Position numbers and translations under genes: made by a program. From Nitzschia sp. pyKryTriq1 (lineage: Eukaryota > Bacillariophyta > Bacillariophyceae > Bacillariales > Bacillariaceae), in the NCBI GenBank assembly GCA_956465555.1, contig OY101122.1:2243001-2307000 (forward strand): DNA of 64,000 nucleotides. Reading direction: 5' to 3'. Position 1 is the stretch's first letter; every line of letters begins with the position of its first letter. Positions 468 through 63,388 of the stretch are shown here, in pieces. Under the pieces are notes generated by a model. The model did no database searches. It was not told where the DNA came from and saw nothing but the letters and a program-made list of their open reading frames with translations.

Positions 468-1035
468 ATGGTATTAGGAGCACAAGCCGTCGATCTCGAC
501 GAAGAGGAGCAGCATCATGATAATGATAATGTTGATGATGATGATAATGATGATGATGATGATCCTTTGAGGAGGATGATTCTTCCTAACAATAATAATA
601 ATAATGATAATAATAATAATAATAATATTATTATTCCTCCACCCAGTACGACGCCCAAAGTGAGCAGTTTGGATTTTGAACGAATCGTCAATGATTATTC
701 CATTCAAGCAACACGGGATCGATATGGTCTGGACATTTGCCGCAGCAACAGCAACAACAGCAGCAGCAGTAGCAGCATCATGATGGACCAAGAGGATGAA
801 CATGGTCATGGTGATGATGATGGTGATGGTGATGATGATGAGAAGGATCAATCATCATCATCATCATTATTATTGATCAAGAAGAAGAAGACGAAGAATC
901 ATCATCACCATCATAGACCCACAGCATCCGGGGACTACGGAACACTTCCTCCTGCCAGTAATAATACGGCCAGTAATAATACGGCCAACAACGACAGCAA
1001 GGATACAGACGACGACGACAACAATAACAATAAGA

Positions 1036-1067
<32 letters not shown>

Positions 1068-26136: not shown

Positions 26137-28119
26137 CTGTACTGTACTGTACTGTACTGTACTGTTCCATCGGAGTCGAGTCGAGGAGTATCAAGGATCG
26201 TTCTCTCACACAACGCCCATCCCACTTACTTTCATCCATCATACTGATAATCATTATACATATATATTACTCCTTCCCTTCCAGGCAACATGTCCAAGGA
26301 TGATTGGAGGTGGCACATGTACGATACGGTCAAGGGCAGTGATTGGTTGGGCGATCAGGATGCCATTCATTACATGTGTCGCGAGGCGCCCCAGGCCGTG
26401 ATTGAATTGGAATCCTTTGGCATGCCCTTTTCCCGCACCGAAGACGGCAAGATTTACCAGCGGGCCTTTGGGGGACAATCGCTCGAGTTTGGCAAGGGCG
26501 GGCAGGCCCATCGATGTGCGGCGGCGGCCGATCGGACCGGACATGCCATGCTCCATACCTTGTACGGGCGCTCCTTGGCCTTTGATACGACGTACTTTAT
26601 TGAATACTTTTGTTTGGATTTGCTCATGAGTGAGGACGGTACGACCTGTGTCGGGGTCATTGCCATGAATATGGAAGATGGAAGTTTGCATCGGATCCGG
26701 GCCAAAAATACCGTCCTGGCCACGGGAGGATATGGCCGGGCCTTTTTTTCCTGCACATCGGCCCATACCTGTACCGGAGATGGCAATGCCATGGCATTGC
26801 GCAAGGGATTTTCCAATCAGGACAATGAATTTGTCCAATTCCATCCGACGGGAATTTATGGTGCCGGGTGTCTCATGACGGAAGGATGTCGTGGAGAGGG
26901 CGGTATCTTGCGCAACAGCGAGGGAGAACGATTCATGGAACGATACGCACCGAGTGCCAAAGATTTGGCATCCCGGGATGTTGTCAGTCGGGCCATGACG
27001 GTCGAGATTCGGGAAGGACGAGGTGTCGGACCGAAAAAGGATCATGTACGTTTTTCGTAGTTTGGTATTGGTATTGGTATTGGTATTGTCGTTCTTGTTC
27101 TGGTTGTTCGTTCTTGTTGTGCGTTTGCCTTTTTTTATATTAAAACATGGACTCACTCACCCATCTTTCTTGTACTCTTCTTTACTCTACTCTTCTTCAC
27201 TACTCTACTTCTACTGTATTCCTTTTCACTCTACTCTTTATTATAGATCTACTTGCACTTGGATCATTTGCCGCCCGATCTATTGGCCGAGCGTTTGCCA
27301 GGAATTTCCGAAACGGCCGCCATCTTTGCCGGAGTCGATGTCACCAAGGAACCGATCCCCGTCTTGCCCACGGTCCATTACAACATGGGAGGTATCCCTA
27401 CCAACCATCATGGTCAAGTCTTGCATACCGAATTTGATGCCGCGACGGGAGCTTGGAAATCCGACACGGTCGTTCCAGGCCTATATGCCGCAGGAGAAGT
27501 CGCCAGTGCTTCCGTTCATGGAGCCAATCGTTTGGGTGCCAATTCCCTGTTGGATATTGTCGTCTTTGGACGTGCCTGTGCCCTTCAAATTGCACAAGAA
27601 CACAAGCCGGGCGATAAAATCGCTCCCATGGCGGAAGATGAGGGTATGGAATCGTTGGCCGATATGGATGCCATGCGATATGGCAATGGACAAATCCCCA
27701 CGGCCGACTTGCGAATGGAACTTCAAACGACCATGCAAGAACATGCGGCGGTGTATCGAACAAGTGATACATTGAAGGAAGGAAAGAAAATGGTCGATGA
27801 GATTGTTCACAAGTTCAATACCGATTGTAAGGTCACGGACAAGTCATTGATCTGGAATACCGATCTCGTCGAGACGTTGGAACTCAAGAATCTCATGGCC
27901 TGTGCCTCGACGACCATTACCGGTGCCGAAAATCGTACCGAAAGTCGAGGTGCGCATGCCCGAGAAGACTTTCCCGATCGGAACGACAAGGACTGGATGA
28001 AGCATACCCTGGCCTACTTTGATGGCTCCCGAACCACCTTGAATTACCGTCCCGTGCATTACTATACCTTGGATGAAAATGAATGCAAGGTTGTACCTCC
28101 AGTCGCTCGTGTGTATTAA
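25760..28119 (+). CDS. SDHA: Succinate dehydrogenase flavoprotein subunit (complex II), mitochondrial
   Basis: Exons 25760-26033, 26285-27045 and 27247-28119; 635 residues, normal for the family. Junctions restore [22 protein letters not shown] and [16 protein letters not shown]. The N terminus ([17 protein letters not shown]...) is a basic, Ser-rich mitochondrial presequence. Seen: dinucleotide fold [16 protein letters not shown], the flavinylation motif [15 protein letters not shown] (His79 expected to bind FAD covalently), [65 protein letters not shown], and the C-terminal [12 protein letters not shown] and [18 protein letters not shown]. It oxidises succinate to fumarate in the TCA cycle and passes electrons to the iron-sulfur subunit. 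Intron 1 contains TGTTGC and GTACT microsatellites. Confidence 0.97.
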
Positions 28120-35623: not shown

Positions 35624-36334
35624 TTATTCTCGCAAAGAAGCCGCCCACCGTTCTTCCATTTCGTGTAGATGATGGTTCGAGAGGTTCAAGGCTTCGGCGA
35701 GTATCGATAGAGTACTAGCTCTCCTCTTGGTGATCCTGCTCGAAGAAGAAGAACAACTCAATCGTCTTGGAAGAGGAGCAGCAGAAAGAAACATTCGGGG
35801 AGAATTCGGCGAAGGATAATTATTATTTGGTGCTTCCGTTTCTTGTTGTCGGTGTGGTTCATAGAGGCAGTTGCCATCAGGCGATCTCCTCGGTGAGAAG
35901 AGTGGTACTTCAGCTGCTGCTTCAGCTGCTGCCGTTCTTTGAAGGTCCATGAGATTGCTCGGAGATAGCATTTGATAGAACATGCTGGGACACTTGGAGT
36001 TTCTTCTTGCAAATCGCCGCTTGGGATTGCTGATGCGCTGTTCACTTTCTTCGTCTTCCGTCGTCGTAGCATGAGTAGACGGCGGCGTTCTTGAGAACTC
36101 TTCGGGGAGGTCCATCATCATCGAGACGATGCGCTTTCGTTTGTTGTTCTTGTTGTTGGTCGTGTTGTTGGCGCTGCTGCTGCTGCTGCTGCTGGGCTCC
36201 TCCATCATCTCCACTGGCGATGGTGACGAGGACGACGACGACGACGACGGATAGGATTGATTATTATTTACTCGTGCTTCTTCTTCTTCTCGTTGTTGTT
36301 GAGTATCATCATGGATATCAACAATGGCGGCCAT
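35624..36334 (-). CDS. Small basic protein, unnamed family A, copy 1
   Basis: Single exon, 236 residues. Paralogous to the gene at 37727-38371. Shared blocks in order: a short N terminus (MAxxxI.D), NKRKRIVSM..DLPEEF, NPKRRFARRNSKCPSMFYQM, LSPSNLMDLQRTAA, SPNSPR, LPRR(L/M)S, and a C-terminal helix TLSILAEALNLSNHHLHEMEER. Between them are Ser, Asn and acidic runs that vary. The KRKR and PKRRFARR clusters suggest nuclear localisation. Ser residues in RRNS and KRIVSM contexts resemble basophilic kinase sites. No known domain is recognised. It converges with the preceding large gene, with stops about 65 bp apart. Confidence 0.7.
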   Translation of the reverse strand: MAAIVDIHDDTQQQREEEEARVNNNQSYPSSSSSSSSPSPVEMMEEPSSSSSSSANNTTNNKNNKRKRIVSMMMDLPEEFSRTPPSTHATTTEDEESEQRISNPKRRFARRNSKCPSMFYQMLSPSNLMDLQRTAAAEAAAEVPLFSPRRSPDGNCLYEPHRQQETEAPNNNYPSPNSPRMFLSAAPLPRRLSCSSSSSRITKRRASTLSILAEALNLSNHHLHEMEERWAASLRE

Positions 36335-37726
36335 GGTAAGAACTGATGTACGGTACGTAGGATGAGCGAAGGTTGAAATGACTTATTTTGCTTGGTGTGT
36401 TTGTGATTATTTTTATTTTGTGAGAACGCGGCTTCTCCGAGTAAATAACATAGTTACTGGTCGTGTATGGGAGGGGGAGTACAGTACTGGTACTGTACGT
36501 GCGTTATGTGTGAGAAGACTGCCGATTTTCAAGTTCTGATGGCGATCGTGAAGCCACATACAAGCCATACGATTGATTCATCATCATCCAGTGTCAACAA
36601 CTCATCTAAGTATTCTTATTTCTTCGCCTATTTCTTGGTTCGCCTCGAAAAGACTTCCTAGCCTTCAACTATCGATGGGTCATAGTAGGCCCTAGAAGGA
36701 AGTAAGACTGGCTCCTACAATGTAGTGCAATCTTGCATTCGGATATGAATATGCCCTTCTTACAATTGGTCCTGATGATGAAAAATACGCGCTATTGAAG
36801 TTTCTGTGTGCTTCTCCTACTAGTACTACGTGGTCCGAGGTACCGCCCGTAGAGTACCTGCAATCAGTAGTACTGTAGTACAGTACCAGTAGTAGATCCA
36901 GTTCTACCTACAATTCATTGGAGGTAAACAGCTGGCTACCCTAGTCTACTACTACCGGTAGTACTGCACAACGAGAAGCCACAAGAAGCGACATCCAATA
37001 CACCGCTCATAACTAACCATCAAACATCGCATCAATGGAGTGTTGCTGTGTTGTTTTTGTTGTCGTCGTCGTCGTCGTCACAGAAACGATCCAACAACAA
37101 GAACATGCAGAAATCCGACGATGATCCTCGTGATGATGGATTCGTTCGCTTTTTTTGCTTGGATATGGTCGGCGATTCTCATCACATAAGAAGAATTGAC
37201 GAATTGTGGAGAGAGCAAGAACTTCAAAGAGCAGACCTTCAAAGAATACATGACGAAGGCGTCTTACTACAGGTACTACTACTACTACTACTAGTACCTA
37301 CTAGCTACTACATTCACGAAGCCATCATCCTGCAACTGTCCTTCGTTCTACTACGAGTACTAGCTAGTACTACCAAGAACAGAACTCTACTACTCTACTG
37401 GTAGCAATAGTAACAGATAGTAGAGTAGTAGCGCGGGACTTCTTTAATTACACGTGGTGGAGTGGTAGCAGTACTGCTGTGTAGCAGTACTGTAGCAGGC
37501 TTGGGTCTCGATTGTTGTTACTACTACTAGTAGAGTAACTTCTACTGCTACTCTTGCTCGGTGCTACTCTAGACTAGTAGTAGTATTCGAAAGCAGAATA
37601 GGAAAACTGAGATGATTAGTAGCATGATGAGGATCCCGTACTAGTAGCAGTAGTAGCTGCCTAATCGCTCCGTACTACCAGAAGTACGCCGTGTCCTTGC
37701 AGCGTGTGATAGACTGCTGCTGTCCT
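36335..37726. other. Spacer of the duplicated block, with a possible gene fragment
   Basis: The proximal part (36335-36600) resembles the upstream region of the paralogue (38372-38600): TGTGTTTG.. GATTATTT..GAGAACG and AAGTTCTGAT...GAAGCCACA. A CATTCGGATATGAATATGCC word at 36736 also occurs at 6651. From 37048 an open frame includes DDGFVRFFCLDMVGDSHHIRRIDELWREQ... whose first part recurs at about 39165-39240. Confidence 0.5.
37048..37404 (+). pseudogene. Possible gene fragment within the duplicated block, copy 1
   Basis: A 118-codon frame whose middle part looks protein-like: RDDGFVRFFCLDMV, then GDSHHIRRIDELWREQELQR and ADLQRIHDEGVLLQ. After that it runs into CTACTA repeats that are unlikely to code. 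The same DDxFVRFF segment occurs downstream at about 39165-39240. It could be an exon of an unrecognised gene or a relic copied with the family A genes. Confidence 0.3.
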
Positions 37727-38371
37727 CTATTCTCGCAGCAAAGCCCGCTCGTCCATTTCATGCATTAGGTGATGGCTGGAGAGGTCCAAAGCTTCGGAGA
37801 GTATGGATAGAGTGGCTCTCTTGTTGTTGTAGCAGGCGCCGCCCTCGCTCGATGAAGACGAAACAATGGAACTCATTCGTCTTGGAAGCGTAGTACCAGT
37901 AGTAGGCGGGGGAATCGACCGACGAGGAGAATTCGGCGAAGGATGATGGTTCAGTGCTCCAGCAACAACAAAAACAGGCGAGGATCGCGGTGACAGTGCT
38001 TCAGCGGCCGTTCTTTGAAGGTCCATGAGATTGCTCGGAGATAGCATTTGAAAGAACATGCTGGGACACTTGGAGTTTCTTCGTGCAAACCGCCGCTTGG
38101 GATTGCAGCACTCCGGACTTTCCTCCGAGTTTCTTCCATTAGAGGTTGGTGTTAAGAATTCTTCGGGGAGGTCCATCGAGACGATGCGCTTTCGTTTGTT
38201 GTTGGTGTTGGTGGTGCTTGTTCCAGAAATAGTAGACGACGTGCTGGTGGTGGCGACTGCGCTGGGCTCTTCCATTATGTCATGCAGGGAGGACGAGGAT
38301 GAGCAAGACAATTGATTATTTCGGGCTTGTTGTTCTTGACGATCAGTAATGGTGAGGCCGGCCATCATCAT
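37727..38371 (-). CDS. Small basic protein, unnamed family A, copy 2
   Basis: Single exon, 214 residues from the first of three in-frame ATGs (38371; the third, 38365, matches the start of copy 1 best: MAGLTITDRQEQQ). Conserved with copy 1: NKRKRIVSMDLPEEF, NPKRRFARRNSKCPSMFFQM, LSPSNLMDLQRTAAEAL, SPNSPRR, LPRRMS, and TLSILSEALDLSSHHLMHEMDER. The spacers are shorter and differ in composition. The strong conservation of the basic cluster and the C-terminal helix against divergent homopolymers argues that both copies are under selection. Function unknown; nuclear localisation is likely from KRKR and PKRRFARR. Confidence 0.7.
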   Translation of the reverse strand: MMMAGLTITDRQEQQARNNQLSCSSSSSLHDIMEEPSAVATTSTSSTISGTSTTNTNNKRKRIVSMDLPEEFLTPTSNGRNSEESPECCNPKRRFARRNSKCPSMFFQMLSPSNLMDLQRTAAEALSPRSSPVFVVAGALNHHPSPNSPRRSIPPPTTGTTLPRRMSSIVSSSSSEGGACYNNKRATLSILSEALDLSSHHLMHEMDERALLRE

Positions 38372-39164
38372 AATAGCTGATGTGGATGGAGCGATGATTT
38401 TTGTGTGTTTGATGTGAATTATTTGGGAGAACGATTTTTTTTTTGCTGTTGTACTGTACCGGTACGAACGAACGAAGAGGTCCCCCACCGCGAGTTTGAA
38501 GTTCTGATATTAATTGCGAAGCAAGCAAGGTGTTGAAGCCACAAGGCGAACCAAAACAACAACGCCATCTCGCACGAACCATGAACAGGAGAAAGAACAG
38601 ATTCATAGACTAGCGATATTAAGAAGGCAGAAGGCTACCTCATGAAAAGGCCCTATATTTGTTCGCTAGTGCGTGAAACTTCAGGCAAAACCGAACACTA
38701 CTGCTACTTCACTGGATGCCTCTTTTAAAAACAGCTTGCGGACAAAGGGTCATGTTGAAAGGCCACCATAAATCTAAAAAGGAGAACCAGGAGAGAAGAA
38801 CACTCGAAGCGAAGCGATGCAGCCACACAGAAAGTCGACTCGGTTTTACTCTACTAGTAGTAGGTACCAGATTGCCACTTGAGAATCAAACCCTTGTCTT
38901 ACTGGTTATCTGTACCAGATAAGATAGAACATGACTCTCTATTATCTGGTGGCACCGGTCTGTCTGAAGTTGAACGAGAAGCCATGCATGCACGATGAAC
39001 GACCACCACCATAAATCTGAAAATGGGACCCGAGAATCGAGGCGATGACGATATCCCTATCCCGAGCGAGAGAATAAACCATCAATAAATGGAACAGCCA
39101 CAAAACATTGTCGCGTTGTTTGGACAAGAGGGAAACAGAACACCTAACGCAGCCACCAAAGCTT

Positions 39165-41364: not shown

Positions 41365-42354
41365 TCATTCATTCATTCGTCGTTCTTCTTCTACTTTCTT
41401 GATTGCCCAACGCCGATCAATAGCTTCTATCAAAGATTGCCTCAATTCTCCATTTGGAATCGCAAAGGCTAGGGTAATTTTGGCATTTGATTTCGAATTT
41501 GACTTTGATGCTGATAATGATGATGCTGTACTACTACTACAACATTCGTCCACCAAGACATTTGCGGCTCTTTCAATGGCTTCATCAGTTGGAAATCCTC
41601 GGCACCCGGCTCCCAATAGTGGACATGCGACTCGAATTTCCATTTCCATTTCCGTGTTGTTGTTGTTGTTGTTGTCTTGTTGTTTCTCAGACAGCGGCGG
41701 CAGCAGCAGCATTCGATCATGAATCAATTGTAACGAGTTCCGATAACAATCTTCCAGTAGGGAAGGATCCGCATGTCCATAAAAGGGCGGCACCGTATGC
41801 ACAATCGCATCAAAGTGTAGACTCAACGAAGAACCACCACCACCACTACTCCTGGTAGTAGTAGTATCCGTCCAAACGGCTTGTCCTTCCGGACAGGGCG
41901 CCTTTCCTCGCAATGCCTCTCGCAACTCTGGTCCACCCAATTGATGTACCAGTCCATCAACGACATTGGCCGCAAACATCATTCCCTGTCCGACTTCCAT
42001 TCCACCCCATCGCGTCACATATCCCATGATAGGATGCGCTTCCTTGGCGGGAAGTTTTGTCGGCTGAGGACCACCCTTGGGAAAGTACGAAAAGTCCGAG
42101 ACGCCCGACAAGTTGGGATTGGCGGGATTGATGAGTATGGTTGCTATGGTCGCCGAAGAAGAACCACTACTAGTAGCACTACCGGTAGTACCACCACCAC
42201 TAGCAGCAGCAGCAGCAGCAGCACTCGTCGTGGTCGTAGTCGTCGTTTTCTTTCCAAAATTGGTCACGACACAAGTCGTATCCCACACTTCAATCGCATG
42301 CAGCAAGGTTTTTGGTGTTGCACTATTACCGGCCCCGGTGCCGGTACCGGTACG

Positions 42355-42385
<31 letters not shown>

Positions 42386-42453
42386 ATAGTGAGCCCTTTC
42401 CATCTCCTCACCAGACTGGGCACCACGTTGGATCGATACCATGCGGTAGACAT
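41365..42453 (-). CDS. Macro-domain (ADP-ribose binding) protein
   Basis: Single exon, 362 residues. Two hallmark segments of the macro fold are present: ATILINPANPNLSG (about residues 102-116; the INPAN version of the ADP-ribose-binding loop) and IRVACPLLGAGCRGFPTDEAIERAANVL (about 275-302; the second loop and following helix). Between them are WGGMEVGQGMMFAANVVDGLVHQLGG and LHFDAIVHTVPPFYG, consistent with the intervening strand and helix. Thr, Ala/Gly, Asn and Ser homopolymers break up the domain. Macro domains bind or hydrolyse ADP-ribose derivatives. The N terminus (MSTAWYRSNVVPSLVRRWKG) is basic and amphipathic and could be a mitochondrial presequence, which is inference. Confidence 0.85.
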
Positions 42454-42790
42454 TCGTAGTAGTAATTATTGTTGTTGTATAGTATTGATGCTGGGAGTGA
42501 TAGTGAGCGATGAGGAGGAGCCGACAATGTTATTACTGCTCTCCAATATTACTACTCTACTCTTGTATGTAGAGAGCTATTACCGAGTAGTGCTATGGCT
42601 CGTGTCGTGTGTTGTGAACAATAACAATAATATCATCACGACACGCCGCGACGCCGATGATAGAGTGATGATAATAATGATGATGAATAAATGGATGATG
42701 TGCAGAAAGAGAGTTATTGTTATTGCACACGATGATCATGATGTTGTGAGTTGTGACGAATGTTGTGCTTTTTTATAATTATTTTTTGTG

Positions 42791-43449: not shown

Positions 43450-46400
43450 ATGGCACCTCAGCAAGGAACCAAACAAGTACTGGATGTGGAAGGCGGAGCC
43501 GGCGGCAGCGGCGACGACGACTTGTCGAACTTTTCGGGGATGGACGACGATCCGTCGCAAGATCATTCTTCGGAAGGAAGCGCACTCGGAGTCTCGTTGG
43601 AAAATTCGTCGAATGATGGCCATTCCTCTTCGGGGAACTCTACTGGAAACAGCTCGTATGACCTCTTCGGCTTTACCAGATTCCACTTTCAAGCCGTCAG
43701 CTCGGCACGTTGGGTCTTTTTGGGAACCTTGCTCCTTGCCGCTGTGGGGCTATCGACGGGCGTCTACTTTTTGTTGGAAGATGAACAAGCCGATGACTTT
43801 CAATTGGAGGTACGTACGATACTAGTAGTACTAGTTGTTGATTTTCAACTTCACTTTGGATTGACTTTCTTACCGAGATAGAGCTCACTTCTTATGTCTG
43901 ATGTCTGTCCTCCATGCCATGCGCGTACCTACCACCAGTTTGATAATCTTGCCGTCGAAGTCATCGACGTCGCCAACGAGCACGTGATGAATGTCTTTCA
44001 ACTCATGGACGGACTGACTACGACTGTCACTTCGTTCATCGAAGTCCAGTCCGAGGATCCAAACTTTGCATACCCCAGCGGGTTCATCACCCTGCCGCAC
44101 ATGGAACAGCATTTCGGTTCCGCTCGCAACGCTAGCGGAGCAACGTTACTGGCATACGTTCCGGTGGTCGAGTCGGACCAATTGGAACTTTGGGCCAACT
44201 ATTCGTTGGAAAACCAAGGATGGATTGCAAAGGCCAATGGTGGCGAAGAGGTTGCCCAACCCATTCTCAAGGATATTTGGGATTACGAGGACGATAGCCA
44301 TGATAATGGTTTTCATGAGTATCTCCGAAAATGTGTCGAGAATTCCGAGCTAGAGCAGCTGGACTTTGACACGACGAGTCTGACGCGCGTCCCTCATAAA
44401 CCCGAGGATGGACCGTTCTCGCCCGTTTGGACCTTTTCTCCCGCTCCCAAGCCTTCGGATACTACCATTATCAACCACGATCTCTTTGCTCGCGAACAGT
44501 TCCAACAGGCAATCAAGAGCGTCGATGCGACTCGGAAACCTTTGTTCATTGACGTTTGCAACTTGGCTAGTTGGTTCAACATCGAAAAGGAGACCAACTA
44601 CCTCGAAGCCGTGGTAGTTTATCCCGTATTTGATGGTTTCAGTACTAGTAGTGACAAGAGGGAGGAGGAGGAGGACAAGATGAGGATGATTGTCGGCCAC
44701 ATGATTGAGATTATTCCATTTGCGTACTTTTTCGAAAACATTCTCCCCGAAGGAACGCTACCCCTCGAGGTGGTATTGGAAAGCTCTTGTGGACGCACCA
44801 GTACCTATGAAATTCGTGGTCGAGACGTCAAACTCCTCTCACGCGATACAGACTTGCATAATCAAGACTACGATTCCATGGTCGTCACGTCGATCTTTGC
44901 AGACTTTGCCAATTCTCCCGATTTGTTGTTGATCGAAGAAGAACAGCAGGAGCAGCTGGCCAGCGGCATGGACAACGAAACAGCAGCAGCAACAGCAGCA
45001 GGTATTTGCATCTATACGGTATCCGTCTATCCGACTGTGGAATTCGAAGCCGTCTACGACAGCCCCAAACCGATGCATTATGCGTTGGTCGTTCTGGGAG
45101 TCTTTCTTTGTACGGCCCTTTTGTTTCTCCTCTTTGATGTTCTCATGACCCGGCAACGAGATCAAGTCATGGAAACGGCCAAGAAACAAAATGCTATTGT
45201 ATCGAGTCTCTTTCCCAAGAATATTCAAGCCAAAATGATGCAACAGGTGGACATGGAAAACAACAAACTGTCTAAAATGGGCAAGGCGGGCTTGAAGAAC
45301 TATCTCTTTGATATTCAAACCAATGGCGGGTTTGGCGGCGGCGCTGGTGGTGGAGTTGGTGGTGGCGATCATGTAGCCAACAACAATCATACTAATGCTG
45401 CATTGGCTGGCAAGGGATTCGGACCCTCTGATAAGACCAAGCCTATTGCCGACTTGTTTCCAGAAACTACCATTATGTTTGGAGATATCGCTGGGTGAGT
45501 CATGAATTGAAACGGTATTGTTGCTGGGTGCTGGACGGACGGGATGGAATCCAGATGGACTATACGTACTTTACTCACTCACGCACTCACTCACGCACTC
45601 ACTTGCTCTTTCATCGTATACCAGTTTCACAGCTTGGAGCTCGGCTCGAGAACCATCCCAAGTCTTTATCCTTCTCGAGACGATCTACCACGAATTTGAC
45701 ATGATTGCCAAACGTCGAAGAGTCTTCAAGGTGGAAGTCGTCGGAGACTGCTACGTGGCCGTTTGTGGTTTGCCCGACCCTCGAGCCGATCATGCCGTCG
45801 TCATGGCCAAGTTTGCCATGGAATGCGTCCGGGTACGTACATGGATCATTCTTCGATAATAAGCACAACATGGACATTCCCCTCATCCCGTTTTCTCTCT
45901 CTGCCTCTGTCTCTGTTTTTGGATCGTAGGAAATGAGCCGACTGGTGAACGAATTGGAAATCGAACTTGGACCGGATACGGCTGAGCTAGCATTGCGTGT
46001 GGGGCTTCATAGCGGGCCCGTCGTCGCCGGAGTGTTGCGTGGAGAAAAGTCTCGATTCCAATTGTTTGGAGATACGATGAATACAGCGGCGAGAATGGAA
46101 TCCAATGGTATCCCCAACATGGTTCAGATCTCTCAAGAAACAGCCGACCTTCTCGTCGTAGGCAACAAGAAACATTGGTTCGAACCGCGTACTGAAAAGA
46201 TCCAAGCCAAGGGCAAGGGCGCACTGACGACCTATTTCCTCAAGATGAACCATGGAATCGACAGAAAGTCTTCCACCATGTCTTCTTCATCGAGCCATTC
46301 TTCTTCGACGGATGATGCCAGTACCAGCGGAAGCTTGCACTCATTCCGTGACGAAGCGGAAGTCATCGAGAAGCGCAATCGAATTGCCGATTGGACAGTC

Positions 46401-47998
46401 GAGACAATGGCCGGTTTGCTCAAGGAGATTGTCGTTCGACGAATGGCTGCCAACACCAAAAGCGATCCTAGTCATAAACTCTTTCGGATCGAAAATCAAG
46501 CCTCCTTTTCCAAGGACGGCTCAACTGTCATATCCGAAGTGCAAGAAATCATCGAGCTGCCCCAATTTGATGCCGAAGCCGCCACGAAAGAGGGTGAAAT
46601 CGATGCGAATGCCGTGACATTGCCGGCGGAGGTCGTGGACGAGCTCCGAGAATTTGTACGCACCATTGCTTCCATGTACCACGAGAATCGTAAGTTCTGT
46701 CTGTACTGTTCTGTACTTGTTTGTCATCATCACTTCCATCCATTGACAAACAACGAACTTTTCTCGCGTTCCTGCTCTTGGTTCTAATCATTTCTCTCTA
46801 AATCCTTTTTCTTCTTTCGTGTACTCGTACAGCTTTCCATAACTTTCCTCATGCCAATCATGTGACCATGAGCGTGGTCAAGCTACTCAGTCGAATCGTC
46901 GCACCAGATGTCGAAGAAGTCCACAGTAGTCTTCATGACCACACCTACGGTATCACCTCGGATCCATTGACTCGTTTCTCTGTGGTATTGGCCGCGTTGA
47001 TTCATGACGTGGATCACATGGGAGTTCCCAATGCGCAATTGGTCAAGGAAGGCGATCCCGTGGCGGAACTTTACAATAACCAGAGTGTGGCCGAACAAAA
47101 CTCAATCGATATCGCTTGGGACTTGTTGATGGAGCCTCGCTTTATGCATCTTCGTCGTCAAATCTATACGACGGAAGCCGAGTTCAAGCGATTCCGTCAG
47201 TTGGTCGTCAATAGCGTATTGGCGACCGACATTATGGACAAGGATCTCAAGGAATTGCGAAACAAGCGTTGGGCTACAGCCTTTGCAGTGGAAGGGGATA
47301 AATCCACTCGTCAAGCTGTCAACCGCAAGGCTACGATCGTGATTGAGCACTTGATCCAAGCGTCCGATGTTGCTCATACGATGCAGCATTGGCATATTTA
47401 TCGCAAATGGAATGAGCGACTGTTCCAAGAAATGTACAAAGCGTACGAAGAGGGTCGCATGGAACAAAATCCCGCCGACAACTGGTACAAGGGCGAGATT
47501 GGATTCTTTGACTTTTACATTATTCCTCTGGCGAAAAAGTTGAAGGACTGTGGCGTGTTTGGCGTCTCGAGTGACGAGTACCTCTCGTATGCGTTGCAAA
47601 ACCGCAAGGAGTGGGAAGCTCGTGGAGAAACCATCGTGGAAACAATGGTCCGGTCGGTGAAGCGAAAAACGGTAGCACAATCTGTGTTTGCGGCCGCTCA
47701 AGCCGCCATCGACCTCCAGGGACGAGAGATTGTGGCGGACATGTCCGCTAGCTTGCGTCGGGATGCGTTGGAAAAGAGTCAACGTCGCGATCAAGTGGAA
47801 AAGAGTCCGCCGGCGCGATCCAACACCAACACCAGCAAAACATCATCATCATCATCCTCACCACGCGGCAGCGACAACCCTATCGCTACTAGTACCGCTA
47901 CTAACAAAGCACATCGAACGAGCCTGACCAACCATCGCGACGACAAAGACGACGACGACGAAGAGGACGATGAGTATGCGGTCGGTCTCAAGCAATAG
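43450..47998 (+). CDS. Receptor-type class III nucleotide cyclase fused to class I phosphodiesterase, copy 1
   Basis: Five exons: 43450-43809, 43939-45494, 45625-45832, 45930-46689, 46833-47998; 1349 residues. Layout: acidic cytoplasmic N terminus; helix 1 (ARWVFLGTLLLAAVGLSTGV, about 86-106); an extracellular domain of about 390 residues; helix 2 (HYALVVLGVFLCTALLFLLF, about 500-520); a linker (RQRDQVMETAKKQNAIVSSLF); cyclase domain (about 628-800) with metal Asp636 (FGDIAG) and Asp680 (VVGDCY), and transition-state Asn759/Arg763 (NTAARM); PDE domain (about 962-1250) with HNFPHANHV, ALIHDVDHMG, TDIMDKDL and QASDVA. Cyclase purine-selecting positions are Glu676 and Gln752; the usual PDE glutamine is Glu1183. 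It should both make and destroy a cyclic nucleotide at a membrane, under control of an external signal. Confidence 0.93.
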
Positions 47999-48805: not shown

Positions 48806-51800
48806 ATGTCGCCACCACCGCCGCAGTCGCTCAACCCCCGAGTCGCCCAAAAGAAAAGCAGCATAATGAAGCAGAAGCAGGAGCAGAAGCAGGAACAAGA
48901 ACCGAAACAACTGTCGCTCGCCAACGACTTCTCGGATGATGAATTCGAATCTTCGGGCGCGGGGCTCGGCGGCAACAACGACGATGGTGATGGCATGTCC
49001 TCCTCGGGGGCTTCCTCTTATACCGAAGGCGGAACGCCCAAGAAATACAGCGCCGTGGTAAAGCGTGTCAGAAATGTCATGGGAGATAAGGTCAAACGGT
49101 TGGGACATTTGGAACTCTTTGGTGTGACCTGGTTTGACTTTGCGGCTATTTCTTGTGCGCGATGGATCTTTATATTCGCCCTCTTGGGTGCTGCGGCAGG
49201 ACTCGCGACAGCTGTTTACTTGAAATTGCAAAATGAAGAAATTGCCAATTTCGATGAAGAAGTAAGTCACAGTATACTGATGCTACTGCTACTGCTACTG
49301 CTGCTACTACCTCTGCTTGATGGGTCAAAGAACTATGTATCGACAAGCTCACTCTCACCTTTCTATCTATCTATCTATCGATCCATCTATAGTTCGAAGA
49401 CATGGCGTTGGAAATGATCGAACTGGCCAACGCTCAAGCCTTGAGTGTCTTTAAAATCATGGCCGGTGTCACGACGACCATGACGAGCTCGATTGGTCAA
49501 AAGGCGTACAATTCCTTGTATCCACGTTCCTTTCATACCATGCCCGATATGGAACAACATTTTGGTACGGCACGAAATGCCAGCGGGGCCCTCGTCTTGG
49601 CCTATGCACCCATCGTGTTATCCAATCAACTCGGAGATTGGGCCGAATATTCCGAAGCGAATCAAGGATGGATTCAAGCGATTAACGAACAAGAATACCT
49701 TTCTCACAATACTACCTTGGCCATGAGCGACGTCCAACCCATTCTTCCATATATTTGGGATTATGCACCCGATGATGAGATCCATGCATATTTGAAAGAA
49801 TGCAAGTCCTCGGATCATGATGATCATGGTGATAATCATGCTCCGCATCGTCATCGTCATCGTGATCGTCAACGACGTGGACTGGAACAACAAGCACGAG
49901 AAGCAGAGGTGCGAATCCCCTTGCTGCCTCGCGATGGACCCTTTGCTCCGCTATGGACCTATTCGCCCGGTCCACCGGCGCAAGATACGACCAATATCAA
50001 TATGGATTTATTTGCCAAACCACGTCTGGAAGAAGCCATCAACAGTATCAACCTGGCACGACGAGCCATGTTTTTGGATGTTTGTAATTTGGCCGCTCTA
50101 TTTCTTGTGGATCATAGTCATCATCCAGATGATAAGGACGAACAGGATGAGGATGTGCATGAATTATTGGAAGCAGTCGTGGCTCATCCTGTCTTTGCCA
50201 GTTTTGATGACAATGCTCCGATTGTTGGAAATATGATTGAGATCTTTCCTTGGAGATCCTTTTTTGAAAACATTTTATCGGATCGTAAGAAACCCGTCCA
50301 TGTCGTACTCGCCAATTCGTGTGGACAAGTCGCAACCTTTTATATCACGGGTCCGACGGCGACACTCTTGGCGCATGCCGATATCCATGATGCAGTCTAC
50401 GAAGACATGGCCTTGTTTTCGGAATTTGCCGCCTTTTCGAATCCCAAGCAACAACAACAACAACAACAAGTCGATAATAAGAATATTACAACTCAAGACC
50501 AAGAAGACCAAACAACGATGATGCAAGGCATCTGTTCGTACAACATGACGGTATATCCCACTGCAGATATGGAAGAGGGATACAACACGACGCAACCACT
50601 ATGGTTTGCCATGGTCGTATTGCTCGTCTTTTTTGTCACGGCCGTGGCATTTTTCATGTTTGATCGACTCATGACTCGGCAACGAGACAATATCATTCAA
50701 ACGGCTAAGAAGCAAAACATGATCGTCTCGAGTCTCTTTCCGAAAAGTGTTCAAGCCAAAATGATGGAACAAGTCGATGCCGATCAAATGAAACTTTCCA
50801 AAGTCGGCAAGGCCGGACTTCGACAATACATTAGTAATGAAGAAAAGGGCTTTGGGAATAATAATAATATTGGAAAGCATCAGCATCCTAATCACCATCA
50901 GGCTCATTCTTCGACGACTGGGGGTGGTGGAATCATGATGGACAAGAGTAAACCGATTGCCGATTTATTTCCAGAGACTACCATTATGTTTGGAGATATT
51001 GCTGGGTAAGTCAAACAAGATGAGGAAGACAAACAAAGCTGCTGCTGCTGCTGCTGCTACTACTGCTGCTACTACTTGAAGCAGTAGTAGACGTTTCTCG
51101 TTGAACAACGACGATGCATCTACTATTGCTCAAGTAGTAGTAGTAGTAGTAGGATGATGATGATGATGATGGCTCCGTGTACTACGTTGTAACGAATACT
51201 CACCGACCCGCATCTTTCACTCTTTTTTCCCACCATTTTCTTTTCAGTTTTACGGCTTGGAGCTCGGCCCGAGAACCATCCCAAGTCTTTATCCTTCTCG
51301 AGACGATCTACCACGAGTTTGATGCTATCGCCAAGCGTCGAAGAGTCTTCAAGGTCGAAGTAGTAGGAGACTGCTACGTGGCCGTTTGCGGTTTGCCCGA
51401 TCCTCGACCCGATCATGCCGTTGTCATGGCCAAGTTTGCCAGTGAATGCATTGATGAAATGAGTCGATTGACGCAAGAACTGGAAGTCGAACTCGGTCCC
51501 GACACTACCGAACTCGCCCTTCGTGTAGGATTGCACAGTGGTCCCGTCGTTGCGGGTGTCTTGAGAGGTGAAAAGTCTCGATTCCAACTCTTTGGAGATA
51601 CAATGGTGAGTTTTGCTTCGTTCGAACGTTTGCAAGCCAATGGCCAATGGTGATGGTACCCACTTGCACGGGTATTGATACCCGTTCTTTCGTGCTACCG
51701 TTTTGTTTCTCATCCAAATCTGCTTTCATTGTTACGTTGTTAGAATACGGCGGCCAGAATGGAATCGAATGGCATTCCAGATCGTGTTCAAATCTCCCAG

Positions 51801-53664
51801 GAGACGGCCGATTTGCTGGAAGTAGCCAACAAGGGCCATTGGTTCGAAGCTCGACCGGACAAGATCCAAGCCAAGGGCAAGGGAGAGCTCACTACGTACC
51901 TTCTCAAGATTCATGGCGGCGGCGGCAGTGGCGGTGATGCAACCAACAAAAAGAAGTCAGGCTACGAATCGGATGCTCAATCCGTCGCCTCAAGCTTGAA
52001 TGGAAGCAATGATCATTATCACGATGACTCTCATGTGGCAGAAAAGCGTAACCGTATTGCGGACTGGACGGTGGAAGTCTTGACCGATCTGCTACTAGAA
52101 ATTCAAGTCCGTCGAGAGGCCTCTCAGGTCAAGCAAGAACCCACGTACAAGATTTTACAAGTCGAACAAGAGTCCACCTATCTTGGTGAGAAAACGGTGA
52201 TTGATGAAGTCAAAGAGATTATTGAGCTGCCGGAATTCAACGTTTCTGCTGCGGAACGAGAGGCCAGGATTGATAAGAACACAGTTGCACTCTCTCCCGA
52301 TGTGATTCAAGAGCTTCAAGACTTTGTCCGTACTATTGCATGCATGTACCATGATAATCGTAAGTACATGGAAACGTTTGATCGTGACAGCAGCATTCAT
52401 CGCATCTACATGACATCTCTTACCCATTATTTTGCAATTTCTCCGTCTTCTCTCACCGGCTCTACCCTATCTGCTACTACTAGCCTTTCATAATTTTCCC
52501 CATGCCAATCATGTTACGATGAGCGTGGTCAAACTGTTGAGTCGTATCCAGGCTCCCGACTTGGAGGAAGTTGGCAAGCACACTCTTCACGACCACACGT
52601 ACGGTATTACGAGTGATCCATTGACAAGATTTGCCGTCGTATTTTCGGCACTGATCCATGACGTTGACCATTTGGGTGTTTCGAATATGCAATTGGTCAA
52701 AGAAAACGATCCGATGGCAGAGCTGTATCGCAATAAAAGTGTCGCCGAGCAAAACTCCATCGATATCGCTTGGGACTTGTTGATGGAACCTCGGTTTGAC
52801 AATTTGCGTCGTCAGATCTACACAACAGAAGCCGAGTTCAAGCGCTTCCGTCAGTTGGTCATCAACACGGTCCTCGCCACGGATATTATGGACAAGGATC
52901 TCAAGGAATTGCGCAACAAGCGTTGGGCTACTGCCTTTGCAGTGGAAGGAGATAAATCCACTCGTCAAGCTGTCAACCGCAAGGCTACGATCGTGATTGA
53001 GCACTTGATCCAAGCGTCCGATGTTGCTCATACGATGCAGCATTGGCATATTTATCGCAAATGGAACGAGCGACTGTTCCAAGAAATGTACAAAGCTTGG
53101 GAGGCTGGTCGTCTCGAGACTGATCCTTCGTTGGGCTGGTACAAGGGCGAGATTGGATTCTTTGACTTTTACATTATTCCCCTCGCCAACAAATTGAAGG
53201 ACTGTGGCGTGTTTGGCGTTTCTAGTGCCGAGTACCTCTCGTACGCGACGCAAAATCGCAAAGAATGGGAAGCAAGGGGAGAAGAAATTGTCGATGAAAT
53301 GGTCAGGAACGTCAAGCGGAAGAAGGTAGCCAACTCTGTCTTTATGGCCTCTCGAGATCTGATCGACCACGAAGGGACTGAGATCGTTGCTGAAATGTCG
53401 AGGTCCTTGCGTCGATCCTCTGCAATTGAAACTACGTCTAGCTCCGAGCTACCTAAAACGAACGAGGGAAGTGGCAAGCCGCCACAATTTTCGTCGGTAG
53501 ATGCGATTCATGAAACCATGAGCGCCACTGCGTCCAATAGCAGCTCTCGAGGATTGGATCGTCAAAAGACCGAGGAGGAGGAGGAAATCATGGATTCAAG
53601 CGTCAGCCAGATCGAAGACAGCGACTACGAGGAAGAGCTCGAAATGATGCTTCAGCCAATGTAG
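48806..53664 (+). CDS. Receptor-type class III nucleotide cyclase fused to class I phosphodiesterase, copy 2
   Basis: Five exons: 48806-49261, 49393-51005, 51248-51605, 51744-52359, 52484-53664; 1407 residues. Same architecture as the upstream copy: helix 1 (ARWIFIFALLGAAAGLATAV), extracellular domain with the shared MEQHFGTARNASGA motif and a His/Arg-rich insert (HRHRHRDRQRR), helix 2 (LWFAMVVLLVFFVTAVAFFMF), cyclase domain with Asp687 and Asp731, purine positions Glu727 and Gln803, then PDE domain with HNFPHANHV, LIHDVDHLG and Glu1237 in place of the usual glutamine. Introns 1, 2 and 4 match copy 1 in position and phase. Copy 1 has an additional intron before EMSR that is absent here; copy 2 has one inside GDTM-NTAARM that copy 1 lacks. 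The N and C termini have diverged strongly, while part of the PDE domain is almost identical at the DNA level. Confidence 0.93.
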
Positions 53665-56889: not shown

Positions 56890-57555
56890 TTATTCACGAA
56901 CAATGGGGTCAATAACTTCTCGTGGAGAGAGAGTTCGTGTCGGTACTCGGGGTGGCGATATTCTTTTCTTGGTGGTGGGAGTAACGAAAGTTGATTCTTC
57001 TTCTCTCGTTGGGTAGGATGAACGTCTGTTGCTGGAACGACGTGGCGTCATAGGACAGCATTCGGAATCGAGTAGACAGAGCGCTTTGTCAATGGACTGG
57101 AGAAGCGAAATACTCGACGCGGAGGACGACAACGACGACGACGAAGAAGAAGAACATGATAATGTCCGTTCAAGCAGCGCCGGCACCGACTCCTGGATCG
57201 TTGTATTGTTGTTGTCGTTCTCGGAATGCAAAGTTTTGCGCAATGATCCAGCAGGACTTTTGAGGCGCATTGGCATCGATGGCGGTCGTTCACAACAGCC
57301 TTCGGACTTGGTTGAAAATGATCTGTTTCGAGCCTTGTTGTTATTGGTGGGTCGCTGCTGCTGGTATCGACACGATGATGGAGCAGTACTAATGATATTA
57401 TTAGTATGAATAATGACAATGCCGAAACGCTGAAAGTCCTCAGACTTCTTTCGGCTCACGGCGTCGTCTCGAACAAGCATAAGCTCGGCGCTCCCGGTAC
57501 CTAGTAGGCCATTGTGCTGGTTCCGAAGAGAGCAAAAGTAGAGATCGAGGGACAT
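56890..57555 (-). CDS. Small disordered protein, unnamed family B, copy 2
   Basis: Single exon, 221 residues from the ATG at 57555, chosen because MSLDLYFCSLRNQ aligns with both paralogues (the open frame continues upstream without similarity). Shared motifs: LMLVRDDAVSRKK, FQRFGI, PSMPMRLKSPAGSLRK, and SIDKALCLLDS. It ends with RISPPRVPTRTLSPREV, where SP/TP sites suggest proline-directed phosphorylation. The homopolymers differ from copy 1. No recognised domain. Confidence 0.7.
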   Translation of the reverse strand: MSLDLYFCSLRNQHNGLLGTGSAELMLVRDDAVSRKKSEDFQRFGIVIIHTNNIISTAPSSCRYQQQRPTNNNKARNRSFSTKSEGCCERPPSMPMRLKSPAGSLRKTLHSENDNNNTTIQESVPALLERTLSCSSSSSSSLSSSASSISLLQSIDKALCLLDSECCPMTPRRSSNRRSSYPTREEESTFVTPTTKKRISPPRVPTRTLSPREVIDPIVRE

Positions 57556-58251
57556 GGTGGGTATGGCTTTTGGGGCGTTCTGGGTTGTGTAGTGTAGTGT
57601 AGTGTAGTGTTGTGTTGTATTTGTTGATCTATGATGAGATCGTTTTTCCACTTCTATTAGCAATAATATCATCTCGGAAGTTTACTGCGCGCACGGAGCT
57701 TGAATTATCTCAACATTTAACCGCTTCTCATCCGTAAGTGATAATATCCGTCCCTTCCTTCAAGCAGAAGGCCTATGAACGACCGTTAAGAAAAAAGACA
57801 TCCGGAGAAACTAAAGTACAGTGTCATTTCTGTCACACAGCTCAAAAAAAGATGATAAAAATGATGACGACTTCCAATTACCCCGACAGGAAGCCATCCG
57901 CGCTACGCGAAATGTCTACGTCCATCGTCTTCTACGAACCAGGAACATTTTTTCACCAGCGGGGTGTTGGGTGGTACGTACCAACGGTAATTGTTCTAAC
58001 TTTAGCATTACTACTAGAGGATAATTCACGAGCTGAAAAAGTCTGCACTACGGCATATTCTACCGTGGTAGACTACTGTACCTGTACCTGATGACTTATT
58101 ATTCCGATTAGCGATTGAAAAGCAAGCCAAAACCGTTCCTTGTCTTCCATGATCCCGTTTCGGCGCATATCAAATAATCATCGTTTCGTGAGCGTTGTAC
58201 TCACAATTTTCATTTCGAACAAAACTACGGGCAGACTTATTACGAATCTCT

Positions 58252-58279
<28 letters not shown>
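57556..58279. other. Divergent promoter region of family B copies 2 and 3
   Basis: The stretch between divergent starts. It contains GTAGT repeats close to the minus-strand start and a CAA run (58251-58279) immediately before the plus-strand ATG. The frame at 57738-58091 starts at GTG, has no recognisable domain and is rejected. Confidence 0.5.
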
Positions 58280-58282
<3 letters not shown>

Positions 58283-58843
58283 TCACTTGACCAGTATTTT
58301 AGCAATCTTCGAGCACAGCTCGCTGATGCCGATGGCTCCTTTGTCCTCGTAAGAGATCATGCGGCGTCCTGCTCTTCGGCAAACAATTCTCTAAGCAGTT
58401 CTAGCCACCATCGCAATACTGCTAGCGGCGGACGACGGCAACGAACTTCTTTTGATGAGTCGCCAGAGATCAGTCAATTGCCACCCTCATGTCCTAGGAG
58501 ATCTGCCAGTCGCGAATATTCTTCTACAAATTCCACGTCGAACAACAAGGGACTGGAACATGATGATCATCGGCATGATAACGACGATCTTGTTGGTCAT
58601 ACTATCGACAAGGCCCTCTGCCTGATAGATGGCAGCGACCCGGACGATGATGATGATGATGACGACGACTTCTTTGTGGATCAAGATCGATTCTATGACG
58701 CACTGCGACCTATCAAGACAAAAAGCGGGGGTGCAATCTATTCGTTTGGGGGTAGTAAGAAGCAGCAGACGAGCATGCCACCGATCGTTCCCCAGCGGAA
58801 GGTTTCGATCGAGCCATCATCCCCGTCGCTGCTCTACCGATAG
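58280..58843 (+). CDS. Small disordered protein, unnamed family B, copy 3
   Basis: Single exon, 187 residues, on the opposite strand to its two paralogues. Shared motifs: MSLDQYFSNLRAQ, FVLVRDHAAS, and TIDKALCLIDGS. The PMPMRLKSP block is reduced to a Pro/Arg-rich remnant (QLPPSCPRRSASRE). An Asp9 run precedes a divergent C-terminal region (DQDRFYDALRPIKTKSGG). A CAA-repeat leader ends at the ATG. The inverted orientation shows the cluster was not made by simple tandem duplication alone. Confidence 0.7.
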
Positions 58844-59675: not shown

Positions 59676-62600
59676 TCAGTTCTGACTTGGTTTGTCCCAA
59701 AGCAGATCCGAAACCAATTGAGGACCCAATGGTAGCGTATTCAAGAGGTTGCGTCCTTTACGGTCCAATCCTCGAGGGGTGGCAGCGCGTTCCCATATTT
59801 CGGCATACGATCCCACTGCCCGAATCACGTTGCGGAACAAGTCGTCGTTCACTAGGGGCTGGAAAAGATCGACCCGGGGCATTTGCTGAAAGGTCGCACT
59901 GGTAATGTTGTTTTCTTCAGCGTACTTTGTAGCCGTCACGACGCTCGCTACCATGTTGGACCAGACGACGTCGTCTTCGCGAGTGACCAGCGCTAAGGAC
60001 TCTCTGGAATACGCAGTGGGTCCAATGTCGTATTCACCTGAATAGCCCAAACCGGCAATGTTGTTGGGATTTGTCTCGACAAAACCGGCAGCAATGGCAT
60101 TGCAATCCCCTTGGACGAATCGTTCAATGGTTTCGGATGTGTCCGAAAGCTCGAGCACGTGATCCGAAGCCATGACTTCTTTGAGTCGTTGGCTTTGAGT
60201 CGTACCTTGAGTAACGCACACCAACAGATTCTGGCATTCCGCCGTTTGAGTATCCAGATTATCGGCGCACAAATGGAATCTGAGAGGGAGACGGGAAGAG
60301 AGAGAGAGAGAAAATAAAGCGTGAGAATGGTACAGTATCATGAATACCCACAGCTGTGGGAGTGAACGTGGTAATCTCCCGAGGCTATGGGCAGAACTTA
60401 CGGTGGAACGCCAGCGAAATGAATTTCGTCGTGAAAGTTCGGAGGCGAGAAGGTAAAGCCTTTTCCAGTCGTTGGTTCCAAAACGTCACGTTCCATTGTA
60501 TACGTCGTGACCCTCGCTAGGACGTCTACGCGACCGTCATCAAGTGCTTCGAAGCGATCCAAGGGGTCAAGCACGTTGTACCGTACGTGGACCGACCCAT
60601 CGAATATGGCCGCGGATAGCGCTTCACAGAAGGAAATGTCCATTCCGCTCCACTCCCCATCGTTGAACTCGGCAAAGATGGCCGCTTGAGTGATTCCACA
60701 TCGCAAATGACCACGATTTCGGATGGATTCAAGCGTTCCACCGGAAACGTTTGGGACGAACTGTGGCTTGAGGTTACCAAAGGGCGTTGCGTACATGTTG
60801 GCAGTATCTCCCATGTTGATTTGATTGGCAGGTGATCTAGCCACGTATCGTTCCAAATGTCGATTGTAGATACTGTTGTAATCTCCCACCACGGCAAAGG
60901 CATCTTGGAACATGAATTCAAACCGCTCTCCAAAAAAGTATGGAGTGGGCAAGTCCGAAAGGCTAGTGGAAGATCCGCTGCTTCGAACTTCTTCGGCCGA
61001 GAATAGGGATTGAACTATCCAGTTACAAAAGGACGAGAACTGTAGATCATCGTCCCGCGTGACAAGAGCAATTGGTTCCTTGGAATGGATATTCGACCCA
61101 AAGACATAGTCACCCAGGGACGATTCTGTCTGGTCGACAAAGAACAAATCCACTTGCTCCCCCGCCAAGACATTGCAGCCACCATCGACATAGATTTGAC
61201 GAAACGCATCATACGTCGGAGCAACGACAATAGTAGCATCGGGTAAGATTCCTTCCACTACCTCACGATGAGTTGTGCCATCGAGCACACAAATCTTGGT
61301 ATTTTCACACCCACCAGAGGTGACATTCAAGCTATCGGCACACGGTACGAAATCGGACCGGCCAGCGAATGTGAGTCCGTTATGAAGATAGGGAACGCTG
61401 AACGTAAATCCTCTTTTCGTGGTAGGCTCGAAGAGTTGTCGTTCCAATGTATGAGTAGTAATAGCAAAGAGGACGTCGACGTCTCCCTTGGCCAAGGTGG
61501 GGAATCGCTGCTTCGTTTCGACGAATACGTATTTGACTGGCTCGTCGTTATGGTTTTGAGTATTGAACTGCTCCCTCCCAAAGATTCCGGCCGCTACAGC
61601 TCGACACTATCAGAAAAGAGAAGACGACGAGAAAGCATCGTGAGAGAATAATGGAAGCGAAAGAAGAAAAAGAAGAAGAAGACCGAACAAGATAGACAAC
61701 CCAGAGTAGGTCGCACAACAACTTACCAGATCCACTTCAAAACCTTCGACGACATTCGTAGTTGAGTTCCGAGAACTATATCCTGGTTGATTGGCCACTC
61801 CACAAGTCAAGTAGCCTTTGGAAACAATCTGTTCCAAGGTCGACGATCGAACGCCACCCTCGCCACCATTCAAAGTGGGAGCAGTCGTCGGTGCGGACGG
61901 GAGATTTGAGGAGGCTCCATCCGCGCCGCGGCCGTAGCTGACTGCTACTAGTACTACCAGAACGAAAATGATGCCTATTGCCAGAGACAGAATGGCACGA
62001 TAGTGCTTGGACCAGCAAGTACCATCGTGTTGACCGGCAAGTACCGCATTGACGGCGATCGCCGAGGCATGCTGTGGTGGGTTGACACCATTGCCGGTAC
62101 CGCCGCTGTTACTGGAAAGGCCCTTTTCGGCCGTCTCGAGGGTCAGGTCGTCATCGGCGACGGCGGCCCCACCCTTTTCATCCCCTGGAAGATGAGCATT
62201 TGCACCCCCTTGAGGAACGGATATATGGAAAATAGCGGGTCCCATGGAAGAGCGTCCGGACTGACTGAGAAAGGATGGATTTCGTTGGTGGTGCGGAGAA
62301 GAGTAGGACGAGAATTGAGGACTGGATGGATTTCGTTCGTGGTGCGGAGAAGAGTAGGACGAGAATTGAGGACTTGCCGTCCCGGCAGCACTCATATTCA
62401 TATTCATACTCATGTTCATGCTATTCATAGCATTCATATGGTTCATCGCGTTCATGTTGTTCATATTGTTCATCCCATTCATAATGTTCATATTGTGCAT
62501 TCCAAGCATTTGTTGCGATGGCATCTGCATTCCAAGCGTTTGTTGAGGTGGCATCATCATGAGAGGTGGCGGGGGTCCCAAGCTGAGTGGAGGCGGAGGC

Positions 62601-63388
62601 GATCCTGGATTGCTCGATATGGGATGAAAGGGCAGTGGGGAAATGTCTGGCGACATGGGCCTGGGTGCTGGTGGTACAGTAGGTGGTTGCTGATCGTTCG
62701 CCGCCCATAGTTGGACAAACTCGCTATCGAGCAAGTCTTCTACCTTGATAGCATCCCTCAGTCCATGAGAGATCTTTCCTCTAATCTCTGCCGCCGTAGC
62801 TGGTTTGCATCCTTCCGACGGCTCTTGATTGTTGCACGGTACTAGAAATCTAGCAGTTCCGTTTCCGGCTATAGCTTGTTGGATTTGCTGGATCGTCTGC
62901 GACTTTTCTTGTTTGTTGGCCTTACGATATTCGTTCGTGTATCGTTTGATAATGTCTCTCATTCTCATGTTTCCTGGATGATCTCGAAGGGGCTGCCCTC
63001 TGCCGAAAATAACATCGAGCGGGCGCGGCTTCATGTGGAACTCAGTTTCATGATCCTGACTGGTGGCGGAGTGAAAGTCGTCATCGTCTTCTTCTTCGTC
63101 GTCGTCTCCGGCCCCGTCCGAGTCACTAATCAAGTGCTCCATGGTCGGTGTACCCGTAGTTGCTGCTGATGTCACCCTAGGTGATGGCGACGACGATGCT
63201 TCTACGGAAGATACTCGGCGCGGCGCTGATGCTTCTTGCTGTTGCTGCTGATCCTCGTCAGTCGTAATCATCATAACATCATCGGGAATGTGGGAAACGA
63301 CCCGATGGGCAGTGCTAATATCCTGGTGAGGAAGTCGGATGGGTGTGGGTTCCATGTCGTCATCGTCAATGTCCATGAGGTGATCCAT
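59676..63388 (-). CDS. DUF6824 domain - membrane helix - two bacterial-type solute-binding domains (putative sensor)
   Basis: Three exons in transcript order: 63388-61727, 61606-60402, 60279-59676; 1156 residues. Junctions read FEVDL-CRAVAAGIFG and FAGVP-P-FHLCADNLD, each matching the equivalent position of the other repeat. Layout: acidic N terminus; DUF6824-type domain (about 118-225: PLDVIFGRGQPLRDHPGN ... ARFLVPC ... KISHGLRDA); a Pro/Met/Asn-rich linker with MNxMN repeats; one membrane helix (ILSLAIGIIFVLVVLVAVSYG, about 464-486); then two family 3 solute-binding (amino-acid periplasmic binding) domains, about 515-835 (LEQIVSKGYLTCGVA) and 845-1156 (LESIRNRGHLRCGIT). Both include TLERQLFEPTT / TMERDVLEPTT and paired Cys segments. 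The predicted topology puts binding domains outside and DUF6824 inside, as in a ligand sensor. Ligand unknown. Confidence 0.9.

Follow-up and report, generated by a model that had tools for sequence, protein, structure and literature searches.

A candidate single-pass receptor of a diatom that combines a DUF6824 domain with two amino-acid-binding modules of bacterial type

Background

In the ionotropic glutamate receptors and in the GLRs of plants, the ligand-binding parts are modules related to those considered here. As known from HisJ and from the glutamate receptors, the SBP fold holds its ligand by an arginine, which grips the carboxylate, and an acidic residue, which grips the amino group. 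The protein described below, which is encoded in a stretch of 64,000 nucleotides from the genome of Nitzschia sp. pyKryTriq1 (hereafter, the window), resembles these receptors in that a related module with the expected Arg/acid grip is, probably, exposed outside the membrane. Unlike them, it has one helix and no pore, carries its modules in tandem and has a DUF6824 tail, a domain for which we know of no established function.

Other described systems bear comparison as well. Diatoms possess class C GPCR-like proteins with 7tm_3 and PBP1 domains (PMC3727952); these are likewise membrane proteins with an outer portion of bacterial periplasmic-binding ancestry, but the window protein has one helix and SBP_bac_3 modules rather than the 7tm_3 and PBP1 pair. 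Membrane-bound regulators have been found via rare pairings of a helix with a transcription-type domain (PMC13294678); here the likeness is in the joining of a helix to a domain that is mostly soluble elsewhere, and the difference is that DUF6824 has no known role in transcription and that its release from the membrane is putative. As to ligands, two transmembrane proteins of Seminavis have been proposed as possible receptors of diproline (PMC8027222), and the authors of a 2025 review stated that they were aware of no algal pheromone receptor (PMC12352721). Among the titles and abstract openings listed in searches of the open-licence literature, we found no description of the DUF6824-helix-SBP-SBP architecture; there, the combination of diatoms with SBP_bac_3 leads, judging by title and abstract, to work on ocean bacteria.

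The gene and its product

The gene occupies positions 63388-59676 of the minus strand (C8:2302676-2306388 in genome coordinates, some 10 kb from the end of the contig), and its three exons yield 1156 residues in one frame. Its parts are as follows.

61727-63388, minus strand: exon 1, residues 1-554, starting with the earliest ATG of a frame that is already open at 63454 (ATG at 63388); in order, an acidic low-complexity N-terminus, DUF6824, a Pro/Met/Asn-rich linker, the membrane helix and the initial 39 residues of module 1
62753-63016, minus strand: DUF6824 domain, residues 125-212, from Pfam match and alignment
61934-61996, minus strand: single membrane helix, approximately residues 465-485, from hydropathy
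60740-61843, minus strand: module 1, residues 516-843, membrane-proximal SBP_bac_3, split by intron 1
61607-61726, minus strand: intron 1, 120 nt, GT-AG, phase 0, between EVDL and C
60402-61606, minus strand: exon 2, the bulk of module 1 and the beginning of module 2
59679-60739, minus strand: module 2, residues 844-1156, membrane-distal SBP_bac_3, split by intron 2
60280-60401, minus strand: intron 2, 122 nt, GT-AG, phase 2
59676-60279, minus strand: exon 3, the rest of module 2, with the stop codon at 59676-59678

The sequence-only reading of this DNA had taken the three phase-compatible exons as one gene, and the GT-AG joins indeed give a single protein of 1156 residues. The fusion of DUF6824, helix and module does not depend on splicing because DUF6824, the helix and the beginning of module 1 are all encoded within exon 1; the last residues of this exon (516-554) align to the start of 4z9n, a bacterial binding protein of solved structure. 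In the paralogue C12, a single frame of 814 codons runs without interruption through DUF6824, the helix and the initial part of module 1. Furthermore, the site and phase of intron 1 are common to the paralogues C16, C11 and C13 (the intron is absent from C12), and those of intron 2 (phase 2) to C12, the next introns of C16 and C11 being located elsewhere; the junctions in the paralogues were placed by eye from GT-AG and alignment. Taken together, the content of exon 1, the C12 frame and the common intron sites appear to make the three-exon model sound. It could be objected that a model drawn from the genomic sequence is wrong or merges two separate genes, an outcome that the earlier reading had named as its own refutation; given the same three observations, we consider this very improbable.

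When exon 1 is read on into intron 1 (61610-61726, minus strand), the frame continues for 38 codons, a hydrophobic stretch among them, so that retention of this intron would yield DUF6824 and the helix without the modules.

The domain content had been anticipated as DUF6824, one helix and two SBP family 3 domains, with a profile search against PF00497 and DUF6824 suggested as a check. In Pfam, the scores are 53.5 bits for DUF6824 (PF20710; cut-off, 27) and 53.2 bits for SBP_bac_3 (PF00497; cut-off, 26.4), the latter in two stretches; both families are thus above their cut-offs. The window DUF6824 keeps FGRG, HPGN, RFL and KISHGLRD and has lost the Trp that is common in the alignment. The helix has a mean Kyte-Doolittle value of 3.2 over 19 residues, and all 19-residue windows above 1.6 overlap residues ~465-485. 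Besides this one hydrophobic segment there are no candidates for 7tm or pore helices, and Pfam matches with E values of up to 1 include no such domain. Judging by the one helix and by the lack of a pore or 7tm domain, the protein is neither a class C GPCR nor a glutamate-receptor channel.

The helix is, probably, a signal anchor with the N-terminus inside and the C-terminus outside. We favour this orientation chiefly because Cys-rich modules of the periplasmic type would belong outside: 13 of the 16 cysteines follow the helix and three precede it. Within 15 residues of the helix there are two Lys/Arg before it and one after it. The sequons, three before and four after, leave the topology undecided, as does the net charge, which is negative on either side of the helix, and in C13 the cysteines are evenly divided, eight before and eight after the helix.

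Paralogues and the age of the tandem

In the genome (40.65 Mb in 20 contigs), silicon transporters are matched eight times, with seven of the matches reaching E 3.7e-262 or better, in agreement with the earlier attribution of this DNA to a diatom; among 14 control genomes only one gives a match, and that under the cut-off. The PF00497 profile finds six matches in four genes (four above the cut-off); C13, the fifth gene, came from a protein query. Thus, at least five genes carry tandem modules, namely, the window gene (C8), C12, C16, C11 and C13, module 2 of the last being internally deleted.

DUF6824, the helix and two modules are found in one protein in the window gene, and the same order recurs in a diverged paralogue. 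This paralogue, C12, repeats the whole order with 49% identity over 774 columns of helix and modules (blastp), the modules 1 and 2 being 50% and 58% identical, respectively; its DUF6824 (62.8 bits, two stretches) is 35% identical to that of the window gene (E 4.3e-15). The other paralogues are built differently before the helix or the modules. In C16, no DUF6824 match was found in the 113 residues ahead of the helix. C13 (1052-5514 of locus L022) has 793 residues before the helix if the earliest Met in the frame is taken as the start; this part is of low complexity and gave no match to DUF6824 or any other Pfam family. In C11 (4718-7679 of locus L017, C11:1537217-1540178), a Cys-rich, weakly EGF-like part precedes the modules (19.2 bits against a cut-off of 24.3), and no DUF6824 match was found in the part read, which leaves out the 5' end.

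In a tree of the ten modules and three bacterial sequences, C8 and C12 are sisters both for module 1 and for module 2 (support of 100/99 in each case), and C16 comes next in each group (82/85 and 90/94), the other forks being open. Since C8, C12 and C16 group together for each module, the tandem predates these three genes.

The binding modules and their ligands

A profile built from eight modules of four genes matches 4z9n, the periplasmic amino-acid-binding protein of a bacterial amino acid ABC transporter, with E 1.2e-51 and 178.7 bits over profile positions 2-304 of 318; the second-best match is at E 1.1e-18 and 70.3 bits. Taken alone, each module also finds 4z9n first, module 1 with E 5.5e-18 over residues 2-247 and module 2 with E 6.2e-25 over residues 2-250. 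Judged by sequence, both lobes of the SBP fold thus appear to be present, and the earlier description of the modules as domains of a bacterial amino-acid-binding type is supported. The NCBIfam families of amino-acid-binding proteins stay below the cut-off, the best of them, TIGR01096, scoring 65.6 (module 1) and 49.2 (module 2) against 256.35 bits.

Six Cys columns are common to the eight modules of C8, C12, C16 and C11 and to module 1 of C13. Four of these are also Cys in three bacterial relatives (L019-L021), and the other two, an extra pair, are not. These relatives, three loci of 15 pattern matches retrieved with module 2 of C16 as the query, are near-identical, come from gammaproteobacterial MAGs and are ~30% identical to the modules; a single-protein scan of bacterial genomes such as this one reaches close relatives only and does not point to a donor lineage. 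Among viral contigs, no relatives of module 1 were found. One of the bacterial genes, L020, is followed downstream by two PF00528 permease genes, the order expected of AapJQM. The best match to 4z9n and the shared Cys pattern, with the link made through the order of L020 and the permeases, suggest that the modules fit this AapJ-type subfamily. They resemble AapJ-type proteins in the nearly full-length profile match, in the four common Cys columns, in the Arg of both window modules and in the acid of module 1, but differ in the extra Cys pair, in the Gly that replaces the acid in module 2 and in the low identity to L019-L021; moreover, the window protein is tandem and membrane-anchored.

The positions expected to contact the ligand were read on a 13-row alignment of the ten modules of the five genes and the three bacterial sequences. 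In module 1, both the Arg and the acid (Glu) are present in all five genes (Arg610 and Glu704 in the window protein), and module 1 of every gene looks like an amino-acid binder. In module 2, the Arg is kept in three of the five genes (Arg927 in the window protein), and the position of the acid is occupied by Gly in three of four genes (Gly1021 in the window protein) and by Asp in the fourth, the fifth gene being deleted there; it is C11 whose module 2 lacks the Arg and has the Asp. Module 2 of the window gene, hence, does not look like a standard amino-acid binder, and the two modules are probably not equivalent since module 2 is without the acidic residue.

Receptor or importer

In bacteria, modules of this kind are subunits of importers, as illustrated by L020 and its two permease genes, and it could be envisaged that the tandem modules merely concentrate amino acids at the cell surface for an unrelated transporter, with the cytosolic part serving only to anchor or position them. 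The lack of a DUF6824 match in two paralogues, C16 and C13, would suit such ligand capture. However, a six-frame, exon-by-exon search of the genome for the PF00528 permease gave no match, as compared to matches in all 14 control genomes (a heavily split gene could escape this search, and organelle DNA may not be in the assembly), and C8 and C12 have both retained DUF6824 in spite of a module identity of only 50-58%. We consider ligand capture quite unlikely; a receptor is likelier than an importer because no PF00528 permease was found. The interpretation of the protein as a sensor, already put forward from the letters of the DNA, appears to remain the best one, given this result and the Arg and acid of module 1.

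The DUF6824 domain

DUF6824 is hugely expanded in this genome, with at least 150 scored matches, all above the cut-off, out of 237 candidates; some copies are close together or occur two to a frame. We surveyed 57 frames from 47 fetched regions, a sample that leans to the strongest of the 150, among which the C8 and C12 copies are not found. DUF6824 is recognised in all 57 frames, and a single frame has a further Pfam match, to a spore-coat model. A hydrophobic segment is seen in two of the 57, in both cases ahead of the first Met of the frame (helices in other exons would be missed by this count), which is why the coupling of DUF6824 to a helix looks unusual; in one of the two, L044, the first Met is inside DUF6824, so that the segment may belong to the protein via an upstream exon.

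The end branches of the two receptor copies in the DUF6824 tree are 1.97 and 2.36, as compared to a median of 0.88. The C8 and C12 copies are 34-35% identical to each other, and some soluble copies are no more distant, at 34% and 35% identity to the two of them, the window copy being 34% identical both to C12 and to a soluble relative. A common origin of the C8 and C12 domains is weakly supported (91/63, with long branches meeting). Such fast divergence, next to modules that are 50% and 58% identical, speaks against a strictly kept function and would agree equally with signalling and with a role that is relaxed or peculiar to the receptors.

The long branches, along with the lack of a DUF6824 match in C16 and C13, where helix and modules are nonetheless present, count against the receptor reading. 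Together with the loss of the common Trp, they would fit a vestigial DUF6824 in the window gene, with signalling proceeding via a partner or the linker. Yet FGRG, HPGN and the C-terminal motif remain, the domain still scores 53.5 bits, and C12 retains its copy with an even higher score; we judge the vestige improbable.

Searches for solved and viral relatives of DUF6824 were made with an alignment of seven other family members, not with the window copy. The 21 structure matches up to E 10 were all rejected as chance, including the best one (5.7e-5), to designed helical repeats over ~25 positions in pieces of at most 5.4 bits, and one to a homing-endonuclease construct (E 0.025). No relatives were found among viral contigs with this alignment, and a search of open-licence papers gave none on DUF6824 or PF20710.

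A possible mechanism

We believe, with rather more confidence than doubt, that the protein is a one-pass chemosensory receptor with its N-terminus in the cytosol and its C-terminus outside the cell or in the lumen of the endomembrane system. The gene is a real, if unusual, receptor candidate with a putative signalling half. The membrane-proximal module 1 would close on its ligand, an amino acid or a molecule resembling one. Module 2, being devoid of the acid, might bind a different carboxylated molecule, or else modulate module 1 or the pairing of receptors. Closure could move the helix, alone or within a dimer, and the cytosolic DUF6824 tail might change its binding partners in response.

The tail might also be released by intramembrane proteolysis of the S2P or SPP type, a step that seems unlikely although conceivable. 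It overlaps with a special case of the receptor reading in which the protein is a membrane-tethered regulator: upon ligand binding, the helix would be cleaved and the soluble DUF6824 tail would go to the nucleus, the model being ATF6, a type II tethered factor. The N-in/C-out orientation would place DUF6824 at the cytosolic N-terminus, as this case demands, and DUF6824 occurs mostly in helix-free frames among the 57 sampled, the two exceptions showing no segment after the Met. The genome also has the respective proteases, with four M50 and six A22B matches, which makes release compatible with the gene content; still, the presence of M50 says little because this family is found in all 14 prokaryote controls. 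Moreover, DUF6824 lacks a convincing solved relative and diverges fast in both receptors. On the whole, we view the tethered regulator, like the release step itself, as unlikely.

Other genes in the window

The receptor gene shares the window with the following genes.

414-2093, plus strand: CLC chloride channel (Pfam)
13665-16187, plus strand: carboxylesterase (Pfam)
26251-27060, plus strand: FAD_binding_2 protein (Pfam)
35624-36382 and 37727-38509, minus strand: pair of similar proteins with a common NPKRRFARRNSKCPSMF-QMLSPSNLMDLQRTAA, no Pfam match
41365-42465, minus strand: Macro domain protein (Pfam)
43882-47998 and 49393-53664, plus strand: tandem genes with Guanylate_cyc and PDEase_I, a hydrophobic segment preceding the domains
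56890-57681, minus strand, and 58178-58843, plus strand: adjoining the receptor gene, with similar starts (MSLD-YF--LR) on opposite strands; the protein of the latter has no Pfam match

The earlier statement that no pathway member is visible nearby calls for a qualification in view of the two tandem cyclase/phosphodiesterase genes, whose ends are 11.7 and 6.0 kb away from the receptor gene, although nothing links them to it. Genes with the same pair of domains are induced by sex pheromone in Seminavis (PMC8027222).

Implications

A broader reading can be considered, one that we hold tentatively and regard as less than probable: these proteins would constitute a class of receptors in which tandem modules of bacterial ancestry and the expanded DUF6824 domain respond to a cue outside the cell (an amino acid, a dipeptide or something peptide-like) with a signal through DUF6824, which might be released to the nucleus. 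If so, plausible ligands would include polar cues derived from peptides, for instance diproline, the Seminavis pheromone. The window gene and its paralogues are candidates for the sensing of amino-acid-like cues in a diatom, and their modules are separable. Finally, should the receptor indeed signal, it would give a clue to the capabilities of the large DUF6824 family.
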